A stretch of 36,730 nt of DNA from Pseudomonadota bacterium (lineage in GTDB: Bacteria; Pseudomonadota; Gammaproteobacteria; Xanthomonadales; Rhodanobacteraceae), in the NCBI GenBank assembly GCA_029561145.1, contig JAKQJM010000059.1, forward strand, positions 1 to 36,730. Direction: 5' to 3'. Positions 18,673 through 36,581 of the stretch are shown piece by piece; the stretch's first letter is position 1; every line of letters starts with the position of its first letter. The notes beneath the pieces were generated by a model. It saw only the letters and a program-made list of their open reading frames with translations, had not been told where the DNA came from and made no database searches. The position numbers were made by a program, and so were the translations under genes.

Positions 18673-18674
18673 TT

Positions 18675-18710
18675 GGAAACCGGCAGCAGCATGCGCTGTT
18701 GCCGGATTCC
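18675..18710. terminator. Hairpin between convergent S9 peptidase and pgi genes
   Basis: GGAA-A-CCGGCAGCAG (18675-18689) pairs with CTGTTGCCGG-A-TTCC (18696-18710) around a six-base loop, with one A/A mismatch and one G/T pair on the plus strand. It lies 3 bases after the S9 stop and before the end of pgi, so it could serve both genes. A U-run is lacking. Confidence 0.45.
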
Positions 18711-18767
18711 CCCGATACAGCAGTTTTCGGCCAGTACCCGCGCGATCGTCAACGCGATCGACCCGGC

Positions 18768-20366
18768 TCAGCGGCGTAGACGGGCCAGCAAGCCGGCGGT
18801 CGAACCATCGAGTCCGCTGACGTCGCTACTGGCCAGTTTCGGCAACAGGGCGTTGCAGAGTGCCTTGCCGAGTTCGACGCCCCACTGGTCGAAACTGTTG
18901 ATGTTCCAGAGTGCACCGCTGACGAAGACGCGATGCTCGTACAGCGCGATCAGCGCGCCGAGCGAGCGCGGGGTCAGGCGATCCAGCAGGAAGGTCGTGC
19001 TCGGCCGGTTGCCCGGAAACGTGCGATGTCGCGCAAGTACCTGCGGATCGATCGTCGCCGAAGCCGTCGGAACCTTCTCGTGCGCCGCCTCATCGGCGCT
19101 CTTGCCGAGCATCAGGGCCTGCGCCTGGGCGAGACCGTTGGCCAGCAGTTTTTGATGCGAGTCGGCGTGCGCGTGGGAAGGTTCGCGCACGAGGATGAAC
19201 TCGACCGGGATCACATCGGTGCCCTGATGCAGCATCTGGAAGTAGGCATGCTGTCCATTCGTGCCGGGTTCGCCCCAGATGACCGGACTCGTCGCATACG
19301 GCAGTGCATCGCCGTCGAGATCGACGCGCTTGCCGTTGCTCTCCATCTCGAGTTGCTGCAGGTAGGCGGGCAGGCGCCGCAAGCCCTGGTGATACGGCGC
19401 GACGCTGCGGCTCGTGAAGCCATGGAAGTTGCGATACCACACATCAAGCAGGCCGAGCACGATCGGCAGGTTGCGCTCGATCGGTGTCACGCGGAAATGC
19501 TCGTCCATCGCATGCGCGCCATCGAGCAGTGCGCGGAAATTCGATGCGCCGATGGCGAGTGCGATCGGCAGGCCGATCGCCGACCATAGCGAGTAGCGCC
19601 CACCCACCCAGTCCCAGAACCCGAATGTCGTGTCGATGCCGAATTCCGCGGCCGCCTCGATGTTCGTCGTCGTCGCGACGAAGTGTTTGCGCGTGTCGGT
19701 GCCGCCGTTGGCGATGAACCATTCGCGTGCGATGCGCGCGTTGGCCATGGTTTCCTGCGTGGTGAACGTTTTCGACGCGATCACGAACAGGGTTTCGGCG
19801 GGGTTGAGGTCGCGCAAGGCTGCAGCGATATCGTGGCCATCGACGTTCGAGACGAAGTGCAGGCGCAGGTCGCGCTGGCAATAGTCGTCCAGCGCCGGCA
19901 CGACCATCTGCGGGCCGAGGTCCGAACCGCCGATGCCGATGTTGACGACATGCCGGATGCCACTGCTCGCGGTGTCGCGCACGCTTTCGGCATAGGCGAG
20001 CATGCGATCCAGCACGGCATGGACTTCGGCGCCGTGAGCCGCCGCGCCGCGTGGTGCGCGCAGGGCCGTATGCAGGACCGCGCGGCCCTCACTGGCGTTG
20101 ATCGGTTCGCCAGCGAACATCGCATCACGGCGCCGCTCGAGGTCGCATTGACGAGCCAGGTCGATCAGGGCGGACAGGGTTGCCGCGTCGATCAGGCCCT
20201 TCGAAAGATCCGCGAACAATTCCGGCGCCTCGAACGAGAAACGTCCGAAACGACCGGCGTCGTCCGCGAACGCCTCGCGCAGGTCGAAGCGCGATCCGCT
20301 GGAACGATGGAGCGCCTGCAGTCGCGACCAGGCCTCGGTGCGGTCACATCGGGAAACGGATTTCAT
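18768..20366 (-). CDS. pgi: Glucose-6-phosphate isomerase
   Basis: 532 residues, close to the usual 550. It interconverts glucose-6-P and fructose-6-P, and so also feeds fructose-6-P to XanB, encoded about 2 kb away. Family signatures visible: NIGIGGSDLGPQMV, VIASKTFTTQETMANA, FWDWVGGRYSLWSAIGLP, the long active-site segment around ESNGKRVD and WGEPGTNGQHAYFQMLHQGT, and FDQWGVELGK near the end. The start is set at ATG 20366 (MKSVSRCDRT); the frame extends upstream to 20480, but those residues are Arg-rich and unlike the family. It lies 117 bases downstream of the subtilase gene on the same strand. Confidence 0.96.
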   Translation of the reverse strand: MKSVSRCDRTEAWSRLQALHRSSGSRFDLREAFADDAGRFGRFSFEAPELFADLSKGLIDAATLSALIDLARQCDLERRRDAMFAGEPINASEGRAVLHTALRAPRGAAAHGAEVHAVLDRMLAYAESVRDTASSGIRHVVNIGIGGSDLGPQMVVPALDDYCQRDLRLHFVSNVDGHDIAAALRDLNPAETLFVIASKTFTTQETMANARIAREWFIANGGTDTRKHFVATTTNIEAAAEFGIDTTFGFWDWVGGRYSLWSAIGLPIALAIGASNFRALLDGAHAMDEHFRVTPIERNLPIVLGLLDVWYRNFHGFTSRSVAPYHQGLRRLPAYLQQLEMESNGKRVDLDGDALPYATSPVIWGEPGTNGQHAYFQMLHQGTDVIPVEFILVREPSHAHADSHQKLLANGLAQAQALMLGKSADEAAHEKVPTASATIDPQVLARHRTFPGNRPSTTFLLDRLTPRSLGALIALYEHRVFVSGALWNINSFDQWGVELGKALCNALLPKLASSDVSGLDGSTAGLLARLRR

Positions 20367-20483
20367 GCGCTCTGCCCTGGGTGCGGAAGGCAGAGCATAA
20401 CGAGTCCGCGCTGCGTGCGCCGATGCCCGGTCCCGCCCGCGCATGCTCCGCGCGAAGCGAATGCCCCGCTGTTTCCGCAACGA

Positions 20484-23231
20484 CTAGGGGAAAACCGAAA
20501 CCGGGTTCTCGAAGCCGTTGGCGAAGATCTGGTCGCCGACCGGAATGGCGAGATTGGTCGCGTTGTTTCCGGTATCCACGTCGGCATACAGCGGTGCGCT
20601 GATCGTTGCCGCAACATTCAACATGTCGCCCGGGCCGACGACAAGGCCCACGTGGGTCGTGAAGGTCAGGGCGGCGGCGGATGCATCGACAGGCAGGCTT
20701 CCGCCAGTCTGCTCGCAGGTGATCGTCTGGCCCACCGGGCTGCAGGACCACGTTGCGGTTCCTGCGGAGACCGCGCTCGTATCGAAGATGAGCCCGGCCG
20801 GAAGGTCGAGGACAAGCTGGGCCCCGCTGGCGGCATCCGCACCGAGATTCGCCACATTGACGATCAGGTCGATCGAAGCGCCCGCTTCCGCGACCGCGGG
20901 ATCGGCCACGACCGAGACACCGAGATCCGCGCTGCCGAGCAGCGCATCGGCGCAGTTGTAGCAGACCAGGGCGAAGTCCTGGCCCGGCGCACCGGGCGTG
21001 TATGGGTTGAGTGCGTCGGCGGCGATATTGGCGCCGAGGACCTTGATCTCGAACAGTCCCGTGATCTGGTCAGGGCGCAGGAACACCCCTTCGAGGTTGT
21101 TCTTGTTGTCGGCGCTGCCACCGCTTGCCGACCAGCCATCAGTGCCGATCACGTTGCCGGAAAAGGCCACCGCGTTGCTCGTCACCGAGAGATCGAGATC
21201 ATTGACCCACGCCGGTGTCGTGCCGCCGAGGCCGTGGCCCTTGGCGTCCGTCCAGGCCAGCATGATGCGCACCGGTCGCGTCGGATCGGCGGCGCTGAAG
21301 CTGCGTTTCCATTCGGCACCAGTCGTGCCGAGTGTCTCGGTCTGGTCGAGGGTGAAGATCGGATCCGGCGTATTGACGACCGCATCGAGGTCGATGCGCC
21401 CATAACCCTGGAAACGATCCGGGCGATGACCCATGATCCGGCCGTCCGCATCACGGAATCCCTCGAGATCCCTGGCCACAGCGGTAAAGGCGGCCTTGAT
21501 CATGGCCGGGCTCGGCGTGGCGCCCGCGTGCTCGGCACGATATTTCTGCACGAATACCGCCGATGCGCCGCTGGCGACCGGCGATGCCATCGAGGTGCCG
21601 CAGAGGAACGTGAACGAGGTATCGCTCGAGTTGCTCGTGCTGTCGGTGCTGCAGCCCGGCGCGACGACATTCGGCACGCGCCGGCCGTCGCAGGCGTTGC
21701 CATGGGCAGAATTGCCCGAGACGTTGAAGATGCCGGCAGACTGGGCACCCGAGCCCGACTGCATCGACGTGGAACCGATCGCGAACAGGTTCTTCGCTTC
21801 GTCCGGCGAGCCGAGTGAGGACGGTGCGCAGGCACCGCCGCCATCGCCGTTGCCGTTCATGATCGACCACACGTTCTGTACCTGCTGGTTGCCCGGCAGG
21901 TCCGGATTGGCATCGCGGATGACCATGTCGACCTGCTGGGTCGGGATGTCGTAACCCTGCGGCGAACCGGTCGGGCCCCAGGAATTGTTGGTCAGCACGG
22001 CGCCGCTGAGGCTTGATTCCTTGTAGATCTTGAGCATGCCGTCGGCGATCATCGAGCCCGGACCGCCGCCGAGGAAACTGCCGTAGCGCTGCTGCACCAG
22101 GTTCGCGCCGGGGGCGACGCCCTTGCCGCGCAGGAATCCGTTGAGCAGTATGCCGCTGGCGCCGGTGCCGGCGATCGCGCCGGCGACATGGGTGCCATGC
22201 GAGTCGCTCGCGATCGAGCAACTGGTTGGCGTCGCTCCCGAGGGCACGCAGGGCACCATGCGCGAGGCGAGATCCTGATGCGTCGTGCGAATGCCGCCAT
22301 CGACAACGGAAACAACAACGCCGGTGCCGTCATAGCCGAGCGCATCCAGCCACGACTGATAGCCCGGCACGATCGTGTAGGTCGGCGCAGGGCCGTAGGC
22401 ACCGACGATGGACTGCCCGCTCATTTCGCCACGCGGTCCGCCGCCCGCAGCCGTCGCCTGCACCGTGTAGACGCCGGCCAACGTGGCGAGGTCGGGATAG
22501 CGATTGCCCGCGGCGAGCACGTCGATCACGCTGAAATGCGCGTCGAGCACGCTCGTCGAGCGCACCGTTGCACCGAGTGATTCGATGGCATGCAGGAGTG
22601 CGGGCGCATCGGCGTGACGACTGACCAGCAACATCGTCGGTCGCAACGATGCATCGAGATTGCGTTGCTCGGGACGGGTCCGGAATGCAGTCTGGAAATC
22701 CCCGCTCCAGCGAACCTCGGGCCGCGCCTGCGCGCGATCGAGCGCGACCGGATCGGACCAGACGACATACGTGTACGGATGGATGTACTGGGCAGGAACC
22801 ACTCCCGATTCGCGCAGGGCGTTCAACCATTCCGGCTTGATCGGTCCGCGGAACTGGACGAGGTGCCAGTCGGCTTCGTGTCCGCTCGGCGAGTTCGATG
22901 CCGGAATCGGTGGCGCAACGAGCGGATCGAAACGCTGGCCGCCGAGATCGAGCACGAACGGTTGCTCGAAGCGCCTGACCGCGATGCCGGCGGCACCAAG
23001 CGCTGCTTCGTCGACGCTGGATGCCGGAACCCACTGGAATCGCCCGTAGTCGATCGCATCGTCGGTGATCGCCGACCTCGCGAGCAGTTCGACCCGCGTG
23101 GCTTCGACGCGCAGCCAGGCTTCGCCGGCACTCGGGCTTCGCGGTGCATCCGCGATCGCCATCGCGACGTTCGCTTGCGCGATCGACACGGCAGCCAGGA
23201 CAACGCAACAGATCGCGGATCGGAAAGTCAT
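20484..23231 (-). CDS. Secreted subtilisin-like S8 serine peptidase with IFxxGF C-terminal signature
   Basis: 915 residues. Signal peptide about 1-25. An N-terminal region of about 280 residues may act as propeptide. The S8 catalytic domain has D311 (VVDGGIRTTH), H345 (DSHGTHVAGA) and S547 (CGTSMASPVASG), a complete triad. After it come a proprotein-convertase-P-like beta region (WKRSFSAADPTRPVRIMLAWTD style) and a DUF11-like beta domain (SADLGVSVVADPAVAEAGASI onward). The chain ends QIFANGFENPVSVFP, a short signature also ending two other secreted proteins here. Cys pairs (CVPSGATPTSC, CYNC) suggest disulfides outside the cytoplasm. Likely exported protease; substrate unknown. Confidence 0.92.
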   Translation of the reverse strand: MTFRSAICCVVLAAVSIAQANVAMAIADAPRSPSAGEAWLRVEATRVELLARSAITDDAIDYGRFQWVPASSVDEAALGAAGIAVRRFEQPFVLDLGGQRFDPLVAPPIPASNSPSGHEADWHLVQFRGPIKPEWLNALRESGVVPAQYIHPYTYVVWSDPVALDRAQARPEVRWSGDFQTAFRTRPEQRNLDASLRPTMLLVSRHADAPALLHAIESLGATVRSTSVLDAHFSVIDVLAAGNRYPDLATLAGVYTVQATAAGGGPRGEMSGQSIVGAYGPAPTYTIVPGYQSWLDALGYDGTGVVVSVVDGGIRTTHQDLASRMVPCVPSGATPTSCSIASDSHGTHVAGAIAGTGASGILLNGFLRGKGVAPGANLVQQRYGSFLGGGPGSMIADGMLKIYKESSLSGAVLTNNSWGPTGSPQGYDIPTQQVDMVIRDANPDLPGNQQVQNVWSIMNGNGDGGGACAPSSLGSPDEAKNLFAIGSTSMQSGSGAQSAGIFNVSGNSAHGNACDGRRVPNVVAPGCSTDSTSNSSDTSFTFLCGTSMASPVASGASAVFVQKYRAEHAGATPSPAMIKAAFTAVARDLEGFRDADGRIMGHRPDRFQGYGRIDLDAVVNTPDPIFTLDQTETLGTTGAEWKRSFSAADPTRPVRIMLAWTDAKGHGLGGTTPAWVNDLDLSVTSNAVAFSGNVIGTDGWSASGGSADNKNNLEGVFLRPDQITGLFEIKVLGANIAADALNPYTPGAPGQDFALVCYNCADALLGSADLGVSVVADPAVAEAGASIDLIVNVANLGADAASGAQLVLDLPAGLIFDTSAVSAGTATWSCSPVGQTITCEQTGGSLPVDASAAALTFTTHVGLVVGPGDMLNVAATISAPLYADVDTGNNATNLAIPVGDQIFANGFENPVSVFP

Positions 23232-23345
23232 GTGGCTATCCCCGGCAACAAAGCGTTCGATGGTAGTCGCTTGACCCGGCCGATGTCAGCCGACCAGCGG
23301 CCGTCCGCACTCGGACGCAAGGCGTAGCCACCCGCGACCGTCGGT

Positions 23346-23385
23346 GATCCTCCGGCACGGCGGCATCCCGCCGTGCCGGAGGATC
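23346..23385. terminator. Perfect 18-bp hairpin after the M28 peptidase gene
   Basis: An 18-base arm (23346-23363) and its exact complement (23368-23385) flank the loop CATC, 6 bases beyond the M28 stop in its reading direction. Core GGCACGGCGG/CCGCCGTGCC. No U-tract follows, so it is either a terminator of unusual form, a 3'-end stabiliser or a repeat element. Confidence 0.5.
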
Positions 23386-23391
23386 GGGCGA

Positions 23392-25044
23392 CTACTTGCG
23401 TTGCGCCGCCGTCGCGTCGCGTATCGCGCGGAATTCGGATGCCTTGTCCCATTGCGGCCAGCGCTTCGAATTGGCGAGGTCGTTGCCGAGTTTGTAGAGC
23501 ACCGGCATGTCGTGAATCATTCCGGCGAAGGTCCAGCTTGCATCCCATTCGTCGGCGGGCTGGTGGTAGCGCTTTTCCACATAGTCCTTGCCTGCGGCTT
23601 CACCCGCCTCGATGCCGCCCTCGACCCAATCGTTGCCCGAACCCCAGGACAGCGCCGGCACGCCGCGTTTGGCGAACGGGAAGTGATCGGAGCGGAAGAA
23701 ATGGCCGGCTTCGGGATGCGGATCGGTCACATAGGCCATGCCCGCTGCCTTGCCGTCGGCGATCAGGGTATCGAGCAGCTCGGACTTGGCGCTTCCCGAC
23801 GTCGTGAAATTGCGCGCGACGCCAAACGGATCGAGTGCGTCCATGTTGATCACGGCGACCGTGGTGGCCAGCGGGTACAACGGTTTCGACGAGTAGTACT
23901 CGGAACCGAGCAGGCCCTTTTCCTCGGCCGTCACATTGAGGAAGACGATCGAGCGTTCCGGCCTGGGCGCCTTGGCGAACGCGCGACCGAGTTCGATCAG
24001 CGCAGCCGTTCCGGTGGCGTTGTCGACTGCGCCGTTGTAGATCGTGTCGCCCTTCGCATCGGGCGCGCCGACGCCGAGATGGTCCCAGTGGGCGCTGTAG
24101 ATGACGGTTTCGTCGGGTCGCTTGCTGCCTTCGATGCGCCCGGCGATGTTCTGCGAGGTGATCACCTTGGCTTCGACCGCATAATCCGCCGAGAACGTGG
24201 CGTCCTTGAGCGTGACGGCCTTGAAGCCGCGTTGTTGCGCCTGTTTCTTCAATGCCTCGAAATCGAGACCGGCGCGCTTGAACAGGTCGACCGTCACGTC
24301 GCGCTGGATCCAGCCCTCGAGCGCGGGATGCACGGCCTTCGGGTCGTCGCGCACGACATCGAACATTGCGTTGGTATTGGAATTCTTCACGGTCGCCCAG
24401 CCATACGAGGCCGGGTCGGTTTCGTGGACGACGAGCAGGCCGAGCGCGCCCTGGCGTGCCGCTTCCTCGTACTTGTAGGTCCAGCGGCCGTAGTAGGTCA
24501 TCGCCTTGCCGCCGAAGTCGCCGGTGCCGGTTTCGAAATCGGGATCGTTGATCAGGGCGATCGCGATCTTGCCCTTGAGGTCGATGCCGGCGAAATCATC
24601 CCACTGACGTTCCGGCGCCTTGACGCCGTAACCGACGAAGACCAGCGGCGCATCCTTGATCGCGATCCTGGCCGATCCGTCCATCGCCGCACGCACCGCA
24701 ATCTGCTCGCCCTGGGCCAGGGTTTCGTTGTTGCCTTTGACAGTGAGCGAAAGCGCGGGCTTGCCCTGGATCTCGGCGCGCAACAGCGGCACGGCCTGGG
24801 TCCAGAGGCGCTTGCCGTCCTTCAGATCGCCACCGGGCTGAAGCCCGGCTTCCTTCATCCGGGCAACCACGTACTCGATCGTCTTCACTTCGCCAGCGGT
24901 GGCCGGTCCGCGACCCTCGAAGCCGTCCGAGGACAGCATCCTGACCTCGTCGGAGAGTCGTTTGGCGTCGAATTGGGGTGCGTCCGCCGCGGCGGCGAGC
25001 AAGGGGAAGGACAGCACGATGGCGCTTGCGAGCATTCGTTTCAT
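23392..25044 (-). CDS. Secreted M28 family metallopeptidase
   Basis: 550 residues with a signal peptide (MLASAIVLSFPLLAAAADA). A PA-domain insert lies around residues 130-260 (LVFVGYGVKAPERQWDDFAGIDLKGKIAIAL). The catalytic zinc-peptidase part has the expected ligand motifs: SAHWDHLG (His), GAVDNATGTAAL (Asp bridging), AEEKGLLGS (Glu pair), NMDALDP (Asp) and a late His in EKRYHQPADEWD. It resembles aminopeptidases of the M28 group with two zinc ions and probably acts outside the cytoplasm. Start ATG 25044 has AGGAAA upstream; a frame to 25332 is non-family. Divergent from blaI, whose operator lies 99 bases or more from this start. Confidence 0.93.
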   Translation of the reverse strand: MKRMLASAIVLSFPLLAAAADAPQFDAKRLSDEVRMLSSDGFEGRGPATAGEVKTIEYVVARMKEAGLQPGGDLKDGKRLWTQAVPLLRAEIQGKPALSLTVKGNNETLAQGEQIAVRAAMDGSARIAIKDAPLVFVGYGVKAPERQWDDFAGIDLKGKIAIALINDPDFETGTGDFGGKAMTYYGRWTYKYEEAARQGALGLLVVHETDPASYGWATVKNSNTNAMFDVVRDDPKAVHPALEGWIQRDVTVDLFKRAGLDFEALKKQAQQRGFKAVTLKDATFSADYAVEAKVITSQNIAGRIEGSKRPDETVIYSAHWDHLGVGAPDAKGDTIYNGAVDNATGTAALIELGRAFAKAPRPERSIVFLNVTAEEKGLLGSEYYSSKPLYPLATTVAVINMDALDPFGVARNFTTSGSAKSELLDTLIADGKAAGMAYVTDPHPEAGHFFRSDHFPFAKRGVPALSWGSGNDWVEGGIEAGEAAGKDYVEKRYHQPADEWDASWTFAGMIHDMPVLYKLGNDLANSKRWPQWDKASEFRAIRDATAAQRK

Positions 25045-25120
25045 CAGGAGTTTCCTCGATTCGGACAACCGGTCGATGGTAGCAGGCACGGAAATCCGAT
25101 CACCCATGACTTCCGACCTG

Positions 25121-25168
25121 TTGCATTCGGCAAGGCCTGAAACTACAGTCGTAGTACGACATATGTAG
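25121..25168 (+). promoter_or_regulatory. blaI-M56 promoter with twin BlaI-type operators
   Basis: TTGCAT (25121-25126) and TACAGT (25144-25149) are a -35/-10 pair with 17-bp spacing. The -10 is inside a dyad CTACAGTCGTAG (25143-25154), followed by CGACATATGTAG (25157-25168). Each differs by one base from the palindrome CTACANNTGTAG typical of BlaI/MecI operators, and their centres are 14 bp apart. A bound repressor would cover the -10 and the start site. AGAAGGG (25170-25176) is the ribosome site for ATG 25181. Confidence 0.75.
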
Positions 25169-25180
25169 AAGAAGGGTTCG

Positions 25181-25564
25181 ATGATGCGTTCCAGCCATGT
25201 TTCCCTGAGCGAGTTGCAGATCGCGCTGATGCGCGTGTTGTGGGAGCGCGGCGAGACCAGCACGGCCGACGTCGCCGCAGCCCTGGCCGATGAACGTGGC
25301 CTCGCGCATACGACGATTGCTACCTTGCTCACGCGGCTGGAAAAGCGCGGCGTGGTCGGCCAGCGTCGCGATGGTCGCCAGTTGTTCTACCGGGCCGAGG
25401 TTGGCGAGGCGGACGTGAAGCGTTCGATGGTGGCCGACCTGATCGGATCGCTGTTCGCCGGCGACGCCAATGAACTGGTCGCGCACCTGGTCGAGGAGGC
25501 CGAGATCGCTCCGGCAGACCTCGCCCGCATTCGCCAGCGCCTTGAACGTGGAGAGCGGAAATGA
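25181..25564 (+). CDS. BlaI/MecI/CopY-family repressor
   Basis: 127 residues, normal length. The N-terminal winged helix (about residues 8-80) reads LSELQIALMRVLWERGETSTADVAAAL, then TTIATLLTRLEKRGVVGQRRDGRQLFYRA, the family hallmark. The C-terminal helices (LIGSLFAGDANELVAHLVEEAEI) dimerise. BlaI is normally inactivated by cleavage triggered by the partner M56 protease. It overlaps the M56 gene by four bases (ATGA) and is preceded by two operator dyads, so autorepression is likely. No beta-lactamase gene is nearby; the regulated function may be the M56 protein itself, the divergent M28 peptidase or genes elsewhere. Confidence 0.94.
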   Translation: MMRSSHVSLSELQIALMRVLWERGETSTADVAAALADERGLAHTTIATLLTRLEKRGVVGQRRDGRQLFYRAEVGEADVKRSMVADLIGSLFAGDANELVAHLVEEAEIAPADLARIRQRLERGERK

Positions 25565-28077
25565 CCACTGAAATGATTGCCGCATGGTTGGCGACCCTCG
25601 GCCTGCATGCCGGTGCATTGCTGACGATTGCGTTTGTCGCCGATCGCGTCCTGCTGAAAGCCCATCTCGGTTGGCGGGAATGGTTGTGGCGGGTGGCCTT
25701 GTTCGGAGGATTGCTCACGTCGTCCATGCAATTTCTGCTCGACACTCCGAAAGCCGCAAGCATCCCGATGGCAGCGATTGCGTCAGCAGCGCCGGCGGCT
25801 GGCCAGGATCTGATCGTCCTGCCCTCGATCGAGACGCACGCCGCGCGCTCGGGCAGAAGCCAATCCGCTGCGCCGGCGCGAGCGCGGTCGTCGCAAGGCC
25901 TCGGCACGGACACCGGATCCGATGGCCCGATCCAGTCAACGCGCGCGTGGTCACCATCTGCGTGGCTGCCGATCGGGTACCGGATCCTGGTTGGCGCATG
26001 GCTGGCCGGAGCCCTGATCGCCCTGTTCCGTGTGTTCGTGGCCTACGCCCGCGTGCGCAAGACGCTCGCGAGCGCTCGGCCTCTGCGCCATGCGCAACTC
26101 GAACGCGATGCAGAGGAACTCGCGGAACGGGCCGGCCTGCACAGCGTGTGCCTTGAGCGCATCGACGAGCTGGCCTCGCCGCTCGCGGCCGGTGCGAATC
26201 GCATCGTCCTGCCGGGCTGGGTGCTGGATCGTTTCGATCGCGCCCAACTGCGCGCGATGCTTGCCCACGAAGCAGCGCACCTCGCTCGCCGCGACCCCGC
26301 GCGCAAGTTCGCCGTGGCCCTGCTCTGTGCGGTGCTGTGGTTCATGCCGCTGGCGCATGCCGCTCGCCGGCGTCTCAACGAGATCGCCGAGCAGGCGTGT
26401 GATGCATGGGCGGCCGACCAACTCGGAGACGGGCGTGCGCTCGCCGAGTGCCTGGCTGGATGTGCCGAGCATCACGTACGCGGCTGGGAACTCGACCTGG
26501 CCGTCGCAATGGCCGGGCACGACTCCCCTGTATTGCAACGTATCGATCGACTGATGGACGGAACCCCGATGAAAATGAACATCTCCACTTCGCATGCGAT
26601 GCTCGCGACCGCACTTGCGCTCGCCGTCGCGGTCGTCGCGCTGCCGGGCATTGGCGTGTCCGAGGCATTGGCCAAGGCAGGGCAGGGGGCACCACCTTCC
26701 CCGCCGACGCCCCCTTCCGTGCCTGCTGCGCCCGAGGCAGTCACCCCGGCGCGTGATGTGCAGCCAGCCGTTCCGCCCGTTCCCCCCGCACCGCCAGCGC
26801 CGTCCGCATTGCCGTCGGTACCGGCGCCTTCCGTTCCGCCCGCTCCGCCGACGGAACCCACTCCGCCGCCGCCGGCTCCACCCGTAAAAGGTGATGGAAG
26901 CCATATCCATATCTCCAGCGATACCGGATTGTTCGGGAAGAGTCGCCAGCTGACACGCATGGAGGTCAGCGATGGCAAGCGCGGCTACCGCGCAAGCATC
27001 GAAGGCGAGATCACGTACACGCCGGATTACGACGCGGTCGCCAGTCTCGGCAAGGACAGTACTGCGAGCTTTGGCGAAACCATCAACGGAGTCACTCGTC
27101 GCATCGACTACGCGAACAGGAATGGCGCGCTCGAACGCCACTATTTCGTCGACGAGGCCGAACGGCCCATCGATGCGAAGGTCGACGCCTGGATCGCTGC
27201 CATCGTTCCCGAGCTGATCCGTGAAACGGCCGTGGATGCCGACAAGCGCGTCCGCCAGATCCATGCCCGGGGTGGCGCGACCGCCGTGCTCGACGAGATC
27301 CAGCGCATCCATTCGGACTATGCACGCGGCAGCTACATCAAGGAACTCGCCGTGGTCGGCAAGCTGACATCAGCCGAAGTGACGCGTGCCCTCGGTCTGA
27401 TTGATCCGATGGAATCCGACTATGAAATGCGCAATGCGCTGGTCGCCCTCGGCAGCGCCGGACGATTCGATGCGAATCAACAGAAGATGGTGATCGGCCA
27501 GGCGCGCAAGATCGAATCGGACTACGAACGCGCTGAACTCCTGCTCGCTTTGTTGCCGCAGCTGTCAGCCGACGCGACCGTCCACCAGGCCTGGCTCGAG
27601 GCCGCCAACGGGATCGAATCGGACTACGAGCATCGGCGCACCCTGAGCGCGCTGATCGATGCCGGCAGCAACGACGACGCCACTCTGATCACCGCGATCA
27701 ACGCGGCCAACACGATCGAATCGGACTACGAACGTCGCGAACTGCTGTCGACCGCGATCAAGGCGATCAGCAGTGCAGACGATGCCGCTGCGGCTTATGC
27801 CGCGGCTGTTGATGGCATCGGCAGCGACTACGAACGTCGCGAAGCGCTGATGGCCCTGATGCATGCGCGCGGATTCGGCAAGCGCTCCGCCGAAGCCATC
27901 CTCGGTGCGCTTGGCAAGATCGATTCGGACTACGAGTGTCGCGAAGCCTTGACCGCACTCGCCGCCGTCATGCCGAAAGATGCCGGCCTGATCGGTCGCT
28001 ACCGGGAAATCGCGAGCAAGCTCAGCGATTACGAGCGTCAAGAGGCCGAGCGCGCGCTCGATCGTTTCGCCGGCTGA
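25561..28077 (+). CDS. M56 (BlaR1-type) membrane metalloprotease with eight 34-residue SDYE repeats
   Basis: 838-residue sensor-protease partner of BlaI. Hydrophobic segments lie near residues 5-27, 38-60, 137-162, 250-266 and 345-370. The zinc site is H236-E-A-A-H240 with E277 in EQACDAW as third ligand. After the last membrane segment comes a Pro/Ala linker (377-442), then a region without recognisable homology (443-582, including ETINGVTRRIDY), then eight copies of I-x-S-D-Y-E-x-R starting at residues 583, 617, 651, 685, 719, 753, 787 and 820: spacing exactly 34 except the last, 33. The repeats look helical, like a HEAT/TPR-type solenoid. The penicillin-binding sensor of true BlaR1 is absent, so the signal is not obviously a beta-lactam. 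By BlaR1 topology the repeats should face the periplasm; this is inference. Confidence 0.9.
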   Translation: MTTEMIAAWLATLGLHAGALLTIAFVADRVLLKAHLGWREWLWRVALFGGLLTSSMQFLLDTPKAASIPMAAIASAAPAAGQDLIVLPSIETHAARSGRSQSAAPARARSSQGLGTDTGSDGPIQSTRAWSPSAWLPIGYRILVGAWLAGALIALFRVFVAYARVRKTLASARPLRHAQLERDAEELAERAGLHSVCLERIDELASPLAAGANRIVLPGWVLDRFDRAQLRAMLAHEAAHLARRDPARKFAVALLCAVLWFMPLAHAARRRLNEIAEQACDAWAADQLGDGRALAECLAGCAEHHVRGWELDLAVAMAGHDSPVLQRIDRLMDGTPMKMNISTSHAMLATALALAVAVVALPGIGVSEALAKAGQGAPPSPPTPPSVPAAPEAVTPARDVQPAVPPVPPAPPAPSALPSVPAPSVPPAPPTEPTPPPPAPPVKGDGSHIHISSDTGLFGKSRQLTRMEVSDGKRGYRASIEGEITYTPDYDAVASLGKDSTASFGETINGVTRRIDYANRNGALERHYFVDEAERPIDAKVDAWIAAIVPELIRETAVDADKRVRQIHARGGATAVLDEIQRIHSDYARGSYIKELAVVGKLTSAEVTRALGLIDPMESDYEMRNALVALGSAGRFDANQQKMVIGQARKIESDYERAELLLALLPQLSADATVHQAWLEAANGIESDYEHRRTLSALIDAGSNDDATLITAINAANTIESDYERRELLSTAIKAISSADDAAAAYAAAVDGIGSDYERREALMALMHARGFGKRSAEAILGALGKIDSDYECREALTALAAVMPKDAGLIGRYREIASKLSDYERQEAERALDRFAG
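27307..28047 (+). repeat. 102-bp coding tandem repeat (SDYE units) in the M56 gene
   Basis: Motif codons begin at 27307, 27409, 27511, 27613, 27715, 27817, 27919 and 28018, i.e. 102-bp steps, the last 99. The 17-base core ATCGAATCGGACTACGA is identical at 27511, 27613 and 27715, and ATC-N6-GACTACGA(A/G) recurs at 27817 and 27919. The remainder of each unit has diverged, so this is an old protein repeat with a conserved core rather than a recent expansion. Confidence 0.85.
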
Positions 28078-28111
28078 CCCGCCGTCGCGATCGCTGCCTG
28101 GTTTGCGTGTC

Positions 28112-28145
28112 AACGAAAAGGCCGGTTCACACCGGCCTTTTCGTT
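28112..28145. terminator. Strong intrinsic terminator after the M56 gene
   Basis: A perfect 15-bp stem AACGAAAAGGCCGGT / ACCGGCCTTTTCGTT with loop TCAC. The A-run and T-run lie inside the stem, so it can work on both strands, ending the blaI-M56 transcript and, from the other side, that of the PRC-barrel gene. Confidence 0.85.
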
Positions 28146-28181
28146 TGCTGCGTTGTTGATCCGACCCGCAAATGGCTGGAA

Positions 28182-28247
28182 ACCGTTCGGGCTGAGCCTG
28201 TCGAAGCCCATCTGTGGCGGCCCTTCGACAGGCTCAGGGCAAACGGT
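28182..28247. repeat. REP-like inverted repeat with GAGCCTGTCGAAG arms
   Basis: Left arm CCGTTCGGGCTGAGCCTGTC continuing GAAG (28183-28206) and right arm CTTCGACAGGCTCAGGGCAA continuing ACGG (28223-28246) are near-perfect complements around a 16-base spacer. The GAGCCTGTCGAA core is a well-known dispersed intergenic repeat in Xanthomonas-related and other proteobacterial genomes. Its position between two gene ends fits a REP element. Confidence 0.65.
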
Positions 28248-28279
28248 ATTTACCGGCTGGATCAATGGAGGATGCCGGG

Positions 28280-28621
28280 TCAGCCGGCGTAGTACGCGCT
28301 CATCTGTTCCGAGAAAGTACGATCGGCAAAGTTCGGCCAGTTGTCCTTGTCGAATCCCGGCGCGTCCTTGAGACGCTCCTTGCTCGCATTGAGGACGAGG
28401 TGCTTGTTCGCATAGTCGATGCTGATCGCATTCCAAGGCACCGCGAAGAACTTGTCGCCCATGCCGAGAATGCCTCCGAACGAGAGCACGCCATAGGCGA
28501 TCTTCCCGGTCGAAGTGTCGAACATGATCTCCTTGAGGTCGCCCAGCGATTCGCCTTGCGGATTCTTGACCGCATCGCCGAGCAGAGTGGTTGCCGACAT
28601 GAAGCGTGCATCATGTGTCAT
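28280..28621 (-). CDS. Small PRC-barrel domain protein
   Basis: 113 residues. The segment LLGDAVKNPQGESLGDLKEIMFDTSTGKIAYGVLSFGG is a typical PRC-barrel opening, followed by FFAVPWNAISIDYANKHLVL and a C-terminal tail ending MSAYYAG. PRC-barrel proteins bind partners or RNA or act in stress and photosynthetic assembly; stand-alone copies like this are often stress-induced and of unknown role. Start ATG 28621 has AGGAGA 8 bases upstream; the frame runs on to 28729 but without family likeness. Soluble, no signal peptide. Confidence 0.85.
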   Translation of the reverse strand: MTHDARFMSATTLLGDAVKNPQGESLGDLKEIMFDTSTGKIAYGVLSFGGILGMGDKFFAVPWNAISIDYANKHLVLNASKERLKDAPGFDKDNWPNFADRTFSEQMSAYYAG

Positions 28622-28985
28622 CTGGATTCTCCTGGATGGATCGTCGCGGCGGCATGCCGCAAGCGTGTGGCGCAGAACAATGCGCGGATGCCGATGAATC
28701 GAAGCCGAGTTCGACAGGGAGAGGTTCATTTGCGCGTCAGATTCCTCCGGATATCGGAGTCAAGCGCGTCCGGGCGTTACTCATGGCGCGCTTCGGCGTC
28801 GGCCATCGCGGAGTCGAAACGGGCTCCCCTCGACGCCCGGTGCCTTCGTGATCGGACACCGCGGTTCGATCTGCCTTGAGGCCAACGCTTCAGAGTGGCC
28901 GAAATGCCGGTCTGCGACGTCCGCCGCTTTCGCCGGGTCGCCCGCGGCCTTACCATCGGTCGTTCATTCCCGGGGATACCATCCG
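28622..28985. other. 364-bp divergent intergenic region
   Basis: Lies between the PRC-barrel and second S9 peptidase starts and must hold both promoters. No convincing gene: open frames on either strand here are Arg-rich and have no recognisable motif. CCGGGGATA at 28970-28978 precedes the S9 ATG and includes its likely ribosome site. I see no clear -35/-10 pair, tRNA or strong hairpin. Confidence 0.5.
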
Positions 28986-31049
28986 ATGAAGCCGTTGATT
29001 GCTGCCTTGCTGTTGAGTCTCGCCGTGCCCGTGCTGGCCGCACCGCACCCGTTCGAGGTCAAGGACCTGGTCATGATGGAGCGGGTTTCCGATCAGGTCC
29101 TGTCGCCGGACGGCCGCACGATCGCCTTGCAACTGCGCGAAACCGATTACGCTGCGAACAAGGGCAGGAACAGCATCTGGACCGTGCCGATGGCGGGCGG
29201 CAAGCCGACCCGCCTGACCGACGTCGCGCTCAACGCGACCACGCCGCGCTGGTCAGCCGACGGCAAGAGCATCTATTTCCTCGCCAGTCGCGACGATGTC
29301 AGCCAACTCTGGCGTGTGGCGGCAGCAGGAGGCGAAGCCGAAGCGGTCGGCAACCTGTCGCTCGATATCGGCAGCTACAAATTGTCGCCCGACGGCAAGT
29401 CGGTTGCATTCTCGGTCGACCTGTTCTTCGATTGCACGCCGGATCCGGCGCCGATCGCCTGCACCCGGAAGCGGCTCGACAAGGCAGCCGATGACAAGGC
29501 CAGTGGCCTGCTCTACAGCGAGGGGTTCGTGCGCCACTGGGATCAATGGTCCGATGGCCGGCGTTCGCAGTTGCTGGTGGCCTCGCTCGGTACCGATGGC
29601 CTGCTCGGTGAGCCGGTCCTGCTGAGCAGGGGCATCAATGGCGATGTGCCGTCGAAGCCGTTCGGCGACGACAGCGAATATGCATTCTCGCCGGATGGAG
29701 CGACCGTGTATTTCGACGTGCGCAACGTCAGCGCCGGCGAACCGTGGTCGACCAATTTCGACATCTACTCGGTGGCGACGGACGGTTCCTCGGAACCGAC
29801 CAACCACACGGCGGACAACCTTGCCTGGGACGCCAGCCCGTTGCCCTCGCGCGATGGCAAGACGCTCTACTACCTGGCCATGAAGCGGCCGGGTTTCGAG
29901 GCGGATCGCTTCGCCATCATGGCGCTTGATCTTGCCAGCGGCGGAACGCGCGAGATCGCTGCCGGCTGGGACCGCTCGGCCGGTGCACTGAAGGAATCGG
30001 GTGATGGCAAGACGCTCTACACGGCGACTGACGACCGCGGCCAGCATCCGTTGTTCGCAATCGATGTCGCGACGGGCAAGGCGACCCAACTGGTCGGTGA
30101 TGGCCAGGTCGCCGGCTTCGATGTCGGCGCGAAGGCCTTGCTGATCGCGCGCAACGACTTGCGTCGTCCAACCGATCTCTACAGCGCCGACCTGCGGGGT
30201 CGCAACCTCAAGCAGGTCACCCGGTTCAACGCATCGCGCATGAAGGACCTGCGCACCGGCGAATTCGAATTCTTCACCTTTGCCGGAGCCGCGGGAGCCA
30301 ATGTGCAGGGCTACGTGGTCAAGCCGGTCGGCTACAAGGCCGGTCGGAAGTATCCGGTCGCCTTCATCATCCACGGCGGACCGCAGGGTGCGATGGGCAA
30401 TGATTTCCACTACCGCTGGAATCCGCAGACCTATGCCGGGCAGGGCTTTGCCGTCGTCACGGTCAACTTCCACGGGTCGACCGGCTACGGCCAGGCATTC
30501 ACGGATGCGATCTCGAACGACTGGGGCGGCAAGCCGCTTGAGGATCTGAAGCTCGGCTGGGCGGCAGCGCTCAAGAAGTATCCGTTCCTTGACGCGGATC
30601 GGGCCTGCGCACTCGGTGCGTCGTACGGCGGCTACATGATCAACTGGATCGCCGGCAACTGGAACGAGCCGTGGAAATGCCTGGTCACGCACGATGGCGT
30701 GTTCGACACGCGCGCGATGGGTTATGAAACCGAAGAGCTGTGGTTCTCCGAATGGGAGAACGGTGGCACCGTCTACGACAACCCGGAAGCCTACGAGAAG
30801 TTCAATCCGGTCAATCACGTCAAGGACTGGAAGGTACCGATGCTGATCGTGCAGGGCGACAAGGATTTCCGCATTCCGACCACGCAGGGACTGGCGGCGT
30901 TCAATGCCGCACAACGGCGCGGCATTCCGAGCGAACTGCTGGTGTTCCCCGACGAGAACCACTGGGTGCTCAAGCCGCAGAACAGCGTGCAGTGGCACAA
31001 CACGGTGAATGACTGGCTCAAGCGCTGGACGTCCGCCGGCACGAAGTAG
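28986..31049 (+). CDS. Secreted S9 family peptidase, DPP5-like
   Basis: 687 residues, signal peptide about 1-19 (LLLSLAVPVLAAPHP). The propeller part has repeated DG-K motifs (SPDGRTIALQL, WSADGKSIYFLASR). The catalytic domain has FIIHGGPQGAMGN, VNFHGSTGYGQ, S546 in GASYGGYM, D627 in GDKDFRIP and H659 in DENHWVLKPQNS. The late pattern FPDENHWVLKP and overall order match bacterial dipeptidyl peptidase 5 and acylaminoacyl-peptidase-like enzymes, which release dipeptides in the periplasm. Distinct from the first S9 protein in this window (different active-site surroundings). Start ATG 28986 follows GGGGA. An upstream in-frame stretch to 28848 precedes the signal peptide and is rejected. Confidence 0.92.
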   Translation: MKPLIAALLLSLAVPVLAAPHPFEVKDLVMMERVSDQVLSPDGRTIALQLRETDYAANKGRNSIWTVPMAGGKPTRLTDVALNATTPRWSADGKSIYFLASRDDVSQLWRVAAAGGEAEAVGNLSLDIGSYKLSPDGKSVAFSVDLFFDCTPDPAPIACTRKRLDKAADDKASGLLYSEGFVRHWDQWSDGRRSQLLVASLGTDGLLGEPVLLSRGINGDVPSKPFGDDSEYAFSPDGATVYFDVRNVSAGEPWSTNFDIYSVATDGSSEPTNHTADNLAWDASPLPSRDGKTLYYLAMKRPGFEADRFAIMALDLASGGTREIAAGWDRSAGALKESGDGKTLYTATDDRGQHPLFAIDVATGKATQLVGDGQVAGFDVGAKALLIARNDLRRPTDLYSADLRGRNLKQVTRFNASRMKDLRTGEFEFFTFAGAAGANVQGYVVKPVGYKAGRKYPVAFIIHGGPQGAMGNDFHYRWNPQTYAGQGFAVVTVNFHGSTGYGQAFTDAISNDWGGKPLEDLKLGWAAALKKYPFLDADRACALGASYGGYMINWIAGNWNEPWKCLVTHDGVFDTRAMGYETEELWFSEWENGGTVYDNPEAYEKFNPVNHVKDWKVPMLIVQGDKDFRIPTTQGLAAFNAAQRRGIPSELLVFPDENHWVLKPQNSVQWHNTVNDWLKRWTSAGTK

Positions 31050-32285: not shown

Positions 32286-34076
32286 TCAGGGATCGAATCC
32301 ATCGCAGAAGATCGTGTCGGCAGCGCCGCAGCTGCCGGTTCCCGCCTGGCGTTCATAGGCGCCGAGATCACGCACGCCAAACAGATCCGCTACGCCGGAC
32401 AGATCCTGGTCGCGCGGCTGGTTGTCGAGATCGCGATCATCGCCGCTCACCGGAGGTGCGAAGTCGACGGCTGGCGAATATTGGCGCAGATGGTAGTCGC
32501 CATTGGCCGCATCGACGAAAGCAGGCGCATCGCTGATGACCGTCGGACCGTTTGGCAGGGTCGTGATGTCGCTCGCCAGCACATGCTCGACATCGATGTC
32601 ATTGGGACTTCCCGAGTACGCCAGTGAAAGCCGGCCTGGCTGATCGATGATGCTGCCGAACAGATCCAGTGTTCCTTCGATACGCATGACCTCACTGGAG
32701 CCGAGGCTGTTCCCCGCAAGCGTGCAATCCGTGACATAGGTGCTCGTGGACGCTTCGGAACTGATCAGTTGCCGGGTGTATTCGTTGTCGGCCAGCAGGC
32801 AGTCCTTGGCTATGGATATGCGGAACTGACCCGTCGTGCGAATGGCATAGCCGCCGCGATTGGCGCGAAGCTCGAAGCGATTCATGAACAAATATCCCTC
32901 GACATTGCGCAGGGTGGCGCCATCGCCGATCCCGCCAGTGGTCGGGCCTGCGTCATTGCCGACCATCGTGTTGCATGAAACGCCGCTTGCGCAACGCACG
33001 GCGCTCGGCACCGTGCAGTCCGATCGATTGAGGTAGGCGAAACCGGATTCGTTCATGTACAGGGCGCTGCCATCGCGAGCGAAATTGTCCTCGATCCGAA
33101 AGTCCGAGGCGCAAAAATAGGCGTCCGAAAAGGAGAACGCTCCATTCCAACCCTGAACGTAGATGGCGCCGCCGGTATCCGAAGCGCTGTTGCCGCGCAC
33201 GGTCACCGGTTGCTGCGGATCGGTGGTGAACAGATGCACGAGCGCATCCACGCCATCGCTCTGCGCGCTCTGAATCGATATGCCGCCCCCATCGACCGCT
33301 GAATTCGAGTAGATCGCGCCGAGCCCGAACGCGCCGGACGTGCCGATATAGGCAATCGCCGGGCCCTGTACGTGCAGTCCACCGCCGTAGCCGCCCACGC
33401 CGCCCACGCCCAGCGCCTGGTTGAATGCGATGATGCTGGACGGTGCGGTCATGGTCATTTCCAGCGGTCCGGCGATGTACACGCCACCACCGCTGCGGCG
33501 GGCAGTGTTGCTGCCGATCGTGGTGTTGTTGCTGATCACCAGTTCGGCATTGTTGCCAGTGGCTTCGGCATAGATGCCGCCGCCGTAATCGGCGCTGTTG
33601 TTGGTGACGTCGGTCTCGATCAACTCGAGGCCGCCGTCGCCCTTGAAATAGATGCCGCCACCTCCGCCGCCGCCGTCTTCATCGCCCAGGGTGATGGTCA
33701 GGTGCCGCAATTTTATGATCGAACCGGTGCCGGCAAAAATGCGGAACACCGGTTCTGCAGCGCCACCTTGCCCGCTGACCACGGTCTTGATGTTGTCGGT
33801 GGCGGCTTGCGTGCAGGTGGCAAAGCCACCGACCACGTTGAGGTTCTGGCTGGTATTGATGACGTTGGCTTCCGGTTGGTAGGTCAGCGAACGGGTCAGG
33901 CGTACGGTGTCTGCGACGCCATTTGCCTCGGCCGCATTGATCGCGGACTGGATGGTGCCGTGGGTGCATCCTGCGCCGGTGCCGACGGTGAATATCGCGG
34001 CCGGCACTTCGGCCGACCAGGCGACCAGGCCCAGCAGGGCAAGCAGGCATCCGTGGATGCATCGACGAGGTGTCAT
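32286..34076 (-). CDS. Secreted beta-helix protein with choice-of-anchor-Q-type end
   Basis: 596 residues. Signal peptide about 1-27 (CLLALLGLVAWSAEVPAA). The start of the mature chain, FTVGTGAGCTHGTIQSAINAAEANG, matches the opening of right-handed parallel beta-helix proteins. The body is full of GGGIY/GGGVY turns (SADYGGGIYAEATG, ARRSGGGVYIAG) and Asn/Ser-rich coils, with several Cys likely in disulfides. Near the end LRQYSPAVDFAPPVSGDDRDLDNQPR and DLGAYERQ resemble the choice-of-anchor Q family. It ends DTIFCDGFDP, the short signature shared with the subtilase and the next gene. Exported; function unknown, possibly adhesion or polysaccharide interaction. AGGGAG about 8 bases before ATG 34076 supports the start. 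Paralogous to the next gene. Confidence 0.85.
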   Translation of the reverse strand: MTPRRCIHGCLLALLGLVAWSAEVPAAIFTVGTGAGCTHGTIQSAINAAEANGVADTVRLTRSLTYQPEANVINTSQNLNVVGGFATCTQAATDNIKTVVSGQGGAAEPVFRIFAGTGSIIKLRHLTITLGDEDGGGGGGGIYFKGDGGLELIETDVTNNSADYGGGIYAEATGNNAELVISNNTTIGSNTARRSGGGVYIAGPLEMTMTAPSSIIAFNQALGVGGVGGYGGGLHVQGPAIAYIGTSGAFGLGAIYSNSAVDGGGISIQSAQSDGVDALVHLFTTDPQQPVTVRGNSASDTGGAIYVQGWNGAFSFSDAYFCASDFRIEDNFARDGSALYMNESGFAYLNRSDCTVPSAVRCASGVSCNTMVGNDAGPTTGGIGDGATLRNVEGYLFMNRFELRANRGGYAIRTTGQFRISIAKDCLLADNEYTRQLISSEASTSTYVTDCTLAGNSLGSSEVMRIEGTLDLFGSIIDQPGRLSLAYSGSPNDIDVEHVLASDITTLPNGPTVISDAPAFVDAANGDYHLRQYSPAVDFAPPVSGDDRDLDNQPRDQDLSGVADLFGVRDLGAYERQAGTGSCGAADTIFCDGFDP

Positions 34077-34222: not shown

Positions 34223-36565
34223 TCAGGGCTCGAAACCGTCGTCGAAGATTCGGTCGTTCGGATCGAGCCATTCGAGCGTGATGCCATCGAACCAGCCGGT
34301 TGCCGTGCGCGGTGGTCCCGACACGCTGTTCTCGAAGACGATCATCGTGACGGCGACCGAACTTGTCGTTGTCCATTGAGCGGCCGACACCTCGATAACC
34401 AGCGGATTCGCAGGTCGCCGCCAGCTCGCCTGGTTGGACAGGAACAGGTAGCCGGAGGTATTCGGGTCGCCCTGGGTGCACGCTTCGCCACCGTTGTCGC
34501 GATATTCCCAGTACAACTGCGCGATGTCACCGGCGACAGTCATGTTGCCGGTGCCGCGTCCCCAGCCGTTGAGCGTGTACGTGCCAGGGCCGGGCAAGTG
34601 CACGCACTGGACCAGTCCGCTGACACTCTGGCCGAAGAAGGTGTTCGCGAGCGAAACCCTGGTCGAGCCCGAGCCTGGTGCGCCGGAGGCGTTCTGTGCG
34701 GTGTCGCGGGTCGAAGTACCGGCTGTCACCGGCGTCCACAGATTCAGGTCGGCATTGAAATCGCCGTTGAGCACGAGCGGCCCGATCATCTGGCGTTCGT
34801 AGGCGCCGATATCCCGTACGAAGCCATCATCGCGCGGCACCGGCTGGAGACGTCGATCGCGCGGCAGGCTGTCGGCGTCGACATCGTTGCCGGTGATCGC
34901 GGGCGCGAAGTCGATCGCGGGCGAGGCGGCGCGCAAGCGCACATCGCCGCGTTCGGGATCGATCAGTCGCGGTGAAAGTGACGACGCCCCTGCGCCGAGA
35001 CTGGCGGTTTCGCTCGCGATGACCATCGCGATGCTTTTGCCACCGCCACTCTGCGTGAGCGAGGTCGTTCCGGGTTGCCAGAGGATCGAGCGCAGCATGT
35101 CGATATCGCCGTTGACGGAAAGGACCTGGCTCGCGGCTATCGCATTGCCGGCGAAGGTCGAATCAACGATTTCGAGCGCGCTTTCATCCTCCAGGCGAAA
35201 CAGCGTTCCGGAGCTGGTATTGCCTGCGAATGCCGTCGCGTCGAGGGCGATATTCGATTGGAATGCGCGTAACGCGTGCGCACCGATGTTGTCGCGGACA
35301 CTGAGTCGCGTCGCCTCGAAGTATCCGCCGTTCTGTACGAGGATCGCCGCTCCTGGAGTCGCGGACCCCACGCTGTTCTCGCTGCGGTTGCCGTGCATCG
35401 TGTTGCAGTCGCTGCCAGCGGCGCAGCGCACGCTGCCCGCAGGTGGCGAGCAGAAACCCGGAAAGCCGGTGTTGCGATTGATCGCGGCAAGTGCGCCGTA
35501 GGCCTGGTTGATCGGGTCGTAATCCGAGTCCAGGTAGAGCGCGCTTCCTTCCGCCGCGACGTTGGCATCGATGCGCATGTCGTAGGCGCAGAGCAATGCA
35601 CGCGAAATGTCGATGACACCGAGGTTCGTGCCGAGGTAGATGCCTCCGCCGGTATTGCTCGCGCGGTTCCCATGGATGCGTACCGGCAGCGTCGGGTTCG
35701 TGGAGTACAGGGTGACCTTTCCGTCGACGTCCTGATCCCCGCCGTTGACCGCAATGCCTCCGCCATAGCGCGCCGAATTGCCGACGATCGCGCCGTTGCC
35801 GATGCCGGAGCTGCCGATAGTCGCGCTGGCTGGCGCGATGACCTGGACGCCGCCACCGTAGCCGTACTGCGGCTGGCTGTTGGTCGGATTGAGGCCGAGC
35901 GCTTCATTGCTCGCGATCGTCGAATCAGGGGCATTCATGATCATCTGTGCCGACCCTTCGAGGCGCACGCCGCCACCCGAGAACTGCGCGGTGTTGAGCA
36001 GGATCGTGGTGCCTGTCTCGAGGCGCAGAACGGCATTTCCACCCTCGCCGATCACGCTGATGCCGCCGCCATAGCCCGCGTAGTTCTGGGAAATGCCAAC
36101 GTCGCGCAGGGTGATCGTGCCGGCGCCCTTGAAATCCAGTCCGCCGCCGTAGCCGTCGTAGACCTCATCGCCACGGATCAGGTTGATGCGTTCCAGCAGC
36201 ACCGTGTTGCCGCTGCCACGTATCGTCATCACGCTGTCCTGGCTGCCGCCCTGTCCGCTCAGGGACGTGAAGCCGGTACTCGTGGGCGCTGAACAATTGG
36301 CGTAACCGCCTCGCACGGTGACACCGCGGCTCGTGATCTGCGCAGCCTGCGCATCCAATGATGGCGCGGCAATGTGCACCTCGTGGAAACCACTGGCCGG
36401 TACGGCAGCCAGCGCCGCAGCCAGCGTGGTGTGTGTGCAGGCACCGTCCACGCCGACGCTGAAGGTTGCCGCCTCGCCATGCGTGCTGAATACTTGCAGC
36501 ACAAGTGCAACGAGGGCAGGGCAGGGCAAACGTGAGAGCTGGGGCACGGCATCGTCTCCTGTCAT
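34223..36565 (-). CDS. Secreted beta-helix protein with extra C-terminal jelly-roll-like domain
   Basis: 780 residues from ATG 36565 (MTGDDAVPQL). Hydrophobic signal region CPALVALVLQVFSTHGEAA, then FSVGVDGACTHTTLAAALAAVPASG, the same opening as its neighbour. The beta-helix body repeats GGGI/GGGV turns (YAGYGGGISVIGEGG, AQFSGGGVRLEG). DIGAYERQ closes the helix at about residue 590. Unlike the neighbour, a further 180 residues follow, beginning LVLNGDFNADLNLWTP and containing aromatic-rich strands; this looks like a CenC-type carbohydrate-binding jelly roll. The chain ends DRIFDDGFEP. A GTG at 36619 would give a longer form (798 residues); ATG 36565 is preferred because the signal peptide starts there, though its GGAG is about 10 bases off. 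Function unknown; sugar binding is inference. Confidence 0.85.
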   Translation of the reverse strand: MTGDDAVPQLSRLPCPALVALVLQVFSTHGEAATFSVGVDGACTHTTLAAALAAVPASGFHEVHIAAPSLDAQAAQITSRGVTVRGGYANCSAPTSTGFTSLSGQGGSQDSVMTIRGSGNTVLLERINLIRGDEVYDGYGGGLDFKGAGTITLRDVGISQNYAGYGGGISVIGEGGNAVLRLETGTTILLNTAQFSGGGVRLEGSAQMIMNAPDSTIASNEALGLNPTNSQPQYGYGGGVQVIAPASATIGSSGIGNGAIVGNSARYGGGIAVNGGDQDVDGKVTLYSTNPTLPVRIHGNRASNTGGGIYLGTNLGVIDISRALLCAYDMRIDANVAAEGSALYLDSDYDPINQAYGALAAINRNTGFPGFCSPPAGSVRCAAGSDCNTMHGNRSENSVGSATPGAAILVQNGGYFEATRLSVRDNIGAHALRAFQSNIALDATAFAGNTSSGTLFRLEDESALEIVDSTFAGNAIAASQVLSVNGDIDMLRSILWQPGTTSLTQSGGGKSIAMVIASETASLGAGASSLSPRLIDPERGDVRLRAASPAIDFAPAITGNDVDADSLPRDRRLQPVPRDDGFVRDIGAYERQMIGPLVLNGDFNADLNLWTPVTAGTSTRDTAQNASGAPGSGSTRVSLANTFFGQSVSGLVQCVHLPGPGTYTLNGWGRGTGNMTVAGDIAQLYWEYRDNGGEACTQGDPNTSGYLFLSNQASWRRPANPLVIEVSAAQWTTTSSVAVTMIVFENSVSGPPRTATGWFDGITLEWLDPNDRIFDDGFEP

Positions 36566-36581
36566 CCGGAAAGTTCTCCGG
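36566..36581 (-). promoter_or_regulatory. Leader hairpin of second beta-helix gene
   Basis: Minus strand CCGGA-GAACTT-TCCGG folds as a 5-bp stem directly before ATG 36565 and holds the GGAG ribosome site in its 5' arm, so translation could be modulated. Confidence 0.35.

Follow-up and report, generated by a model that had tools for sequence, protein, structure and literature searches.

The window, a stretch of 36,730 nt of contig JAKQJM010000059.1 whose forward-strand positions are used throughout, carries a gene pair composed of a BlaI/MecI-family repressor and an M56 zinc protease of 838 amino acids, whose C-terminal part is predicted to consist of a beta domain and, after it, an alpha-solenoid of SDY[E/A] repeats. 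Judged from sequence comparison, the M56-solenoid protein and blaI are a widespread two-gene module and not a single replacement, and we hold with moderate confidence that the pair constitutes a BlaI/M56 antirepressor pathway with an envelope-side input other than beta-lactams. A widespread version of BlaI/M56 signalling with an undescribed sensor domain would mean that the pathway serves envelope sensing in general, with inputs that can be exchanged. The features of the locus are the following:

25106-25122, forward strand: conserved 17-nt element RTGACTTYCGGCCYGTT, 20 nt before the operator
25143-25168, forward strand: tandem BlaI-type operator before blaI, CTACAGTCGTAGTACGACATATGTAG, made up of two CTACANNTGTAG-type boxes and overlapping a potential -10
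25181-25564, forward strand: blaI, BlaI/MecI-family repressor of 127 amino acids (Penicillinase_R match in Pfam, E 3e-29)
25561-28077, forward strand: M56 protease of 838 amino acids, ending in the beta domain and SDYE solenoid
26266-26280, forward strand: zinc motif HEAAH, aa 236-240
26389-26403, forward strand: ExxxD motif (E277, D281), unchanged in 13/13 aligned rows
26506-26514, forward strand: AMA, aa 316-318, aligned with the autocleavage loop of BlaR1 in the profile alignment to 8exs, candidate self-cleavage site
26683-26886, forward strand: Pro-rich linker, aa 375-442
26947-27165, forward strand: beta domain, about aa 463-535, from the secondary structure of the model
27310-28074, forward strand: alpha-solenoid of eight SDY[E/A] units, aa 584-838, from sequence repeats and model

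The blaI product contains the winged-helix Penicillinase_R domain and matches the MecI structure (E 1.3e-11, PDB sequence search); its reading frame overlaps that of the M56 protein by 4 nt. Peptidase_M56 of Pfam spans aa 141-287 of the latter (69.6 bits, cut-off 31), and a profile of the protease part of 13 relatives matches BlaR1 (8exs) with E 2e-13. The M56 gluzincin site HExxH...ExxxD is complete, in agreement with the original prediction, which had named HEAAH and E277. Residues H236, E237, H240, D245, E277, D281 and R327 are unchanged in 13/13 rows, their counterparts in the alignment to 8exs being H201, E202, H205, D210, E242, D246 and an Arg at 293/294. Met317 is aligned to F284, the P1' residue of BlaR1 autocleavage; Met occupies this column in 11/13 rows and is one column off in L017 and L076, and AMA, GMA or AMS is found within the expected autocleavage stretch of 49 out of 58 proteins, which suggests that the autocleavage site is kept in M56-solenoid proteins. 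Two features of the protease part are less favourable. Leu294 is the counterpart of BlaR1 Tyr261 (Leu in 10, Val in 1 and Tyr in 2 of the 13 rows), and mutation of Tyr261 abolished induction in B. licheniformis according to the available part of PMC9834060, which argues against simple BlaR1 equivalence. Hydropathy windows exceed the cut-off at aa 8-26, 142-160, 250-268 and 348-366; the expected second membrane helix (about aa 42-62) stays below it, so that 3/4 expected helices pass, and one segment within the protease domain also exceeds it. We count both features against the antirepressor pathway.

The predicted Pro-rich linker is present, with 68 residues at aa 375-442 of which 46% are Pro, and leads to a C-terminal domain of 394 residues not covered by any Pfam family. 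The AlphaFold2 model of this domain (pLDDT 88.5) has a beta domain and then an alpha-solenoid, in which the Ser of each motif sits just before a helix. The solenoid of the original prediction is therefore supported by the model, but it does not make up the whole C-terminal part; the beta domain (about 463-535), which lies between linker and solenoid, had not been distinguished from it. No transpeptidase or beta-lactamase family of Pfam matched the 838 amino acid protein, in line with the claimed absence of a penicillin-binding sensor, and the blaR1_generic profile, whose cut-off is 400 bits, reached 45.7 bits and was confined to aa 142-352. Equally, no HEAT, ARM or TPR profile of Pfam was found in this protein or in the families listed for 13 relatives, and the best match of the model in Foldseek, among the matches listed, was a designed repeat protein (E 8.6e-4). 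Among the folds listed, a known sensor fold was rejected; in PDB sequences the domain profile matched nothing better than E 0.14. Searches of Pfam, NCBIfam and PDB sequences returned no characterised protein with the C-terminal domain, and no description of it appeared among the literature matches listed, in which subscription journals are thinly covered; the statement that the repeat belongs to no described system thus holds within these sources. At L091 (3425-5689, reverse strand) an M56 protein has a similar beta domain followed by 17-residue repeats (IGSHERHVASL...) and no 34-residue solenoid, and represents a case of the beta domain occurring without the solenoid.

The SDY[E/A] motifs start at residues 585, 619, 653, 687, 721, 755, 789 and 822, with a spacing of 34 residues six times and then of 33. 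Eight I-x-SDYE-x-R units with a period of 34 had been proposed: the eight units stand, but the first of them is SDYA (SDYE in 7/8), the Arg is present in 5/8 and one spacing is 33. Over aa 581-838 the identity at lag 34 amounts to 70 positions, versus a maximum of 36 in 2000 shuffles at lags 20-49. The DNA copies of the repeat lie 102 nt apart; as their identity to the reference copy over 40 nt is only 63-83%, a very recent expansion is unlikely.

The domain profile matched 13/60 relatives. In the larger genome searches, where scores were available for only some first-look candidates and centre genomes are included in the counts, matches were obtained in at least 36 out of 398 genomes drawn from the order (some partial), at least 6 out of 398 from the phylum (three of these belong to the family of the window), at least 36 out of 200 Gemmatimonadota genomes (a good part over the beta part only) and at least 1 out of 385 in the class of G357. 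The genome of the window has one domain match at E <= 0.001 and another at 0.056. M56 is present at 37 and blaI at 34 of the 38 same-order loci, and the four loci lacking blaI are at contig ends (L023, L028, L155) or on a fragment (L167). For the Gemmatimonadota the neighbourhoods of 20 out of 36 matching genomes were compared (21 loci including L017; most of the other genomes match the beta part only), and both M56 and BlaI were found at 20/21 loci, the remaining one, L081, being a short contig. The recurrent pairing with BlaI, which the original prediction had named as support for its reading, is thus found in both groups. Both genes are present at two of three further loci and neither is present at L069. 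We count against the antirepressor pathway this occurrence of the domain without M56 and BlaI, as well as the BlaI match of L025, divided between two frames, and that of L083, which has just 16.2 bits. The L069 gene (7831-9093, forward strand) encodes a free-standing beta-plus-repeat protein with SDHD motifs and has a macro-domain gene and an SSF symporter among its neighbours.

The domain also occurs in free-standing copies, at L069, L079, L080, L081 and L084, with N termini resembling, by eye, signal peptides or anchors. In a tree of 61 domains the rows of the order and those of the Gemmatimonadota cluster strongly, and one clade unites four stand-alone Gemmatimonadota copies with M56-linked ones. 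The free-standing copies, together with the restriction of the operator, in the searched genomes of the order, to its own promoter (see below), would suit a solenoid which is itself the working part, i.e. an envelope scaffold or clamp whose amount is autorepressed and which M56 sheds or tunes. We consider this unlikely, as M56 and BlaI are retained at almost all loci and as a mere anchor would not need zinc residues that are unchanged in 13/13 rows. A role of the module in a mobile element or in defence was rejected, there being no domain match in plasmids or phages, none confirmed among 60 candidate stretches of viral contigs and no PADLOC family match for the M56 protein.

The operator was searched in chosen genomes with known loci, 10, 7 and 9 genomes for the three box patterns. 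The composite operator, with up to 3 mismatches, occurs at one place per genome in 10/10 genomes, always the blaI promoter, with none in the backward control; a regular expression for it was found in 29/38 same-order loci and missed L152, L162-L165 and four cut or fragmentary loci. Each of L162-L165 has two TACANNTGTA boxes. Exact CTACANNTGTAG is present at a single place in 5/7 genomes, each time at the locus (backward control, 2-9 places per genome), and is lacking in the window's genome and in G006 because the boxes there carry mismatches. Several Gemmatimonadota loci have boxes of the form TGCTAN6TAGCA, which in nine Gemmatimonadota genomes occurs at 17 places, 16 of them at the locus (backward control, 5-21 places), while the 17th, in G618:C9, precedes a second, similar blaI at the end of a contig. 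As the patterns were derived from blaI promoters, finding them there is to some extent built in, which does not apply to their near-absence elsewhere. Since boxes are found almost nowhere else in the searched genomes, the data point to a local BlaI/M56-solenoid regulon at these box strengths. For the window's lineage neither the composite operator nor CTACANNTGTAG gave a target beyond its own promoter in the searched genomes, and this also counts against the antirepressor pathway. The element RTGACTTYCGGCCYGTT, with up to 1 mismatch, is found at the locus in 8/8 genomes and once elsewhere, in G024; a second regulator could have its site here.

In two Gemmatimonadota genomes boxes are located before other genes. 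G610 has one before a secreted-solenoid gene and one before blaI. In G531 two are before blaI, one is 12 nt before the ATG of a secreted solenoid and one is close to where the following reading frame begins. The product of that frame matches DUF5916 and CBM9_1, and so does a relative of it in L075. Homologues of this DUF5916 gene are present at 7/21 Gemmatimonadota loci.

The operator data also bear on an indirect sensor of beta-lactams or cell-wall damage, whose solenoid would bind a wall fragment or a partner protein reporting beta-lactams. The family resemblance to BlaR1 speaks for such a sensor, and so does the M. tuberculosis homologue of BlaR1, which likewise has no equivalent sensor domain in the account given by the available part of PMC9834060. 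With the composite operator found before blaI only, and no beta-lactamase or transpeptidase matched by Pfam among ten ORFs scanned around the locus, we regard it as highly improbable.

The blaI-M56 pair is surrounded by a peptidase-rich stretch (16642-31049), and two large reading frames follow:

16642-18672: further S9 relative
20484-23231: S8 subtilase (Pfam)
23392-25044 (likely ATG): M28 peptidase (Pfam)
28848-31049: S9 peptidase (Pfam)
32286-34076: large ORF with a Chlam_PMP match, possible beta-helix surface protein
34223-36619 (-): large ORF with a sub-threshold Beta_helix match, possible beta-helix surface protein

The M28 gene is divergent from the operator and 98 nt away from it, and relatives of M28 and S9 are found near the locus also in L019 and L020. 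Together with the S8 gene, this would fit a peptide-nutrition sensor linked to the nearby peptidases, which appears rather improbable, given that the other same-order loci compared, for which a sample of neighbours was annotated, have no such clustered neighbours and that the M28 relative of L020 does not adjoin blaI. A conserved neighbour serving as an order-wide target was likewise rejected, since only M28, S9 and phosphoglucose isomerase were clustered, in the window, L019 and L020.

In order to compare units within and between proteins, these were located by a regular expression and the motif was numbered from Ile as position 0 (x, position 1; Y, position 4). Of 63 listed proteins, 52 with at least five units were retained, and out-of-register units were dropped, giving 349 units. 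Within-protein likeness was 0.50 versus 0.21 shuffled at position 1 and 0.70 versus 0.29 at position 4. In a second sample of 25 proteins under 45% identity, with 500 shuffles of units among proteins, the values were 0.44 versus 0.16 and 0.71 versus 0.26, exceeding all 500 shuffles; positions 5, 8 and 9 were weaker (ratios 1.5-1.9) and the remainder ranged from 0.9 to 1.44. At positions 1 and 4 the likeness drops as repeats lie farther apart. The residue at position 4 is usually Y, F or H, and G or S in some proteins. Homogenisation at the DNA level is an unlikely source of the uniform motif, as the strong effect is confined to two positions. At several positions (6-9, 14 and 26-28 among them) likeness is higher at lag 2 than at lag 1, indicating that two unit types alternate in some proteins, and duplication of two-unit blocks may have contributed. 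Some Gemmatimonadota proteins (L075, L076, L085 and others) alternate SDYELA and SDYERH in a 68-residue super-unit.

Positions that are uniform in each protein and variable between proteins point to contacts from repeat to repeat or to a periodic ligand. The simplest reading is that of side chains meeting between neighbouring repeats; a periodic ligand touching every repeat would yield the same signal. A more specific and doubtful proposal, built on positions 1 and 4 being, unlike most positions, uniform within and different between proteins (Y, F, H, S, G), is that the solenoid reads a periodic polymer with one repeat per ligand unit and that these two positions set the specificity. If true, BlaI/M56 signalling would have in such a solenoid a sensory input of a new class, whose code could be tuned. 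The uniform positions provide a handle on what the solenoid binds.

The antirepressor pathway with a non-beta-lactam input is preferred on account of the M56 domain matching BlaR1 with invariant zinc residues, the pairing with BlaI, the local operators, the confident solenoid model, and the boxes that precede the secreted solenoid gene (G531, G610) or lie where the DUF5916 gene begins (G531). A BlaI-coupled system with a different input had been suggested originally; the coupling and the lack of a penicillin-binding domain are found, but sensing itself we infer, and the data favour none of the inputs then suggested (a periplasmic peptide, a protein or a cell-wall state). Topology, ligand binding, activation, both cleavages and the direction of regulation we likewise infer, the last steps by analogy with the scheme for BlaR1 activation and cleavage in the available parts of PMC9834060 and PMC7593790. 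The M56 protein would be an inner-membrane protein whose zinc site faces the cytoplasm, and the beta domain and solenoid would be periplasmic on the Pro-rich stalk. A ligand, probably extended or repetitive (for instance a peptide, a glycan or a stretch of unfolded protein), would dock along the solenoid and switch on the protease, which would cut itself and BlaI and so free the tandem operator. In the window's lineage the local response would be more of the sensor pair; in G531 and G610 it would add a secreted solenoid copy, and in G531 also the DUF5916/CBM9 protein. This scheme is directly testable through the operator and a regulon that appears to be local.

The best known M56/BlaI sensors are BlaR1 and MecR1, which respond to beta-lactams and have four membrane helices, a protease inside and a penicillin-binding, class D beta-lactamase-like sensor outside. 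In common with BlaR1/MecR1 of Staphylococcus aureus and Bacillus licheniformis, the M56-solenoid protein has an M56 zinc protease with HExxH and ExxxD, an extra C-terminal domain, and an adjoining gene for a BlaI-family repressor with palindromic boxes, as for BlaI/MecI. By this analogy the pair probably works like BlaR1/BlaI. It differs by a beta domain and SDYE solenoid in place of a penicillin-binding domain, by Leu at the Tyr261 position of BlaR1 and by operators apparently restricted to the locus and, having no penicillin sensor, it falls outside BlaR1/MecR1 membership. The second M56 protein of the window's genome, L001 (G000:C49), has another C-terminal part, without SDYE repeats and with an end that is TonB-like by eye. 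Compared to alpha-solenoids of the HEAT/ARM/Puf type (Vps35, PP2A A subunit, importin-alpha, Puf4), the solenoid described here belongs to no Pfam repeat family and is distinguished by its S-x-x-E motif and its period of 34 residues.
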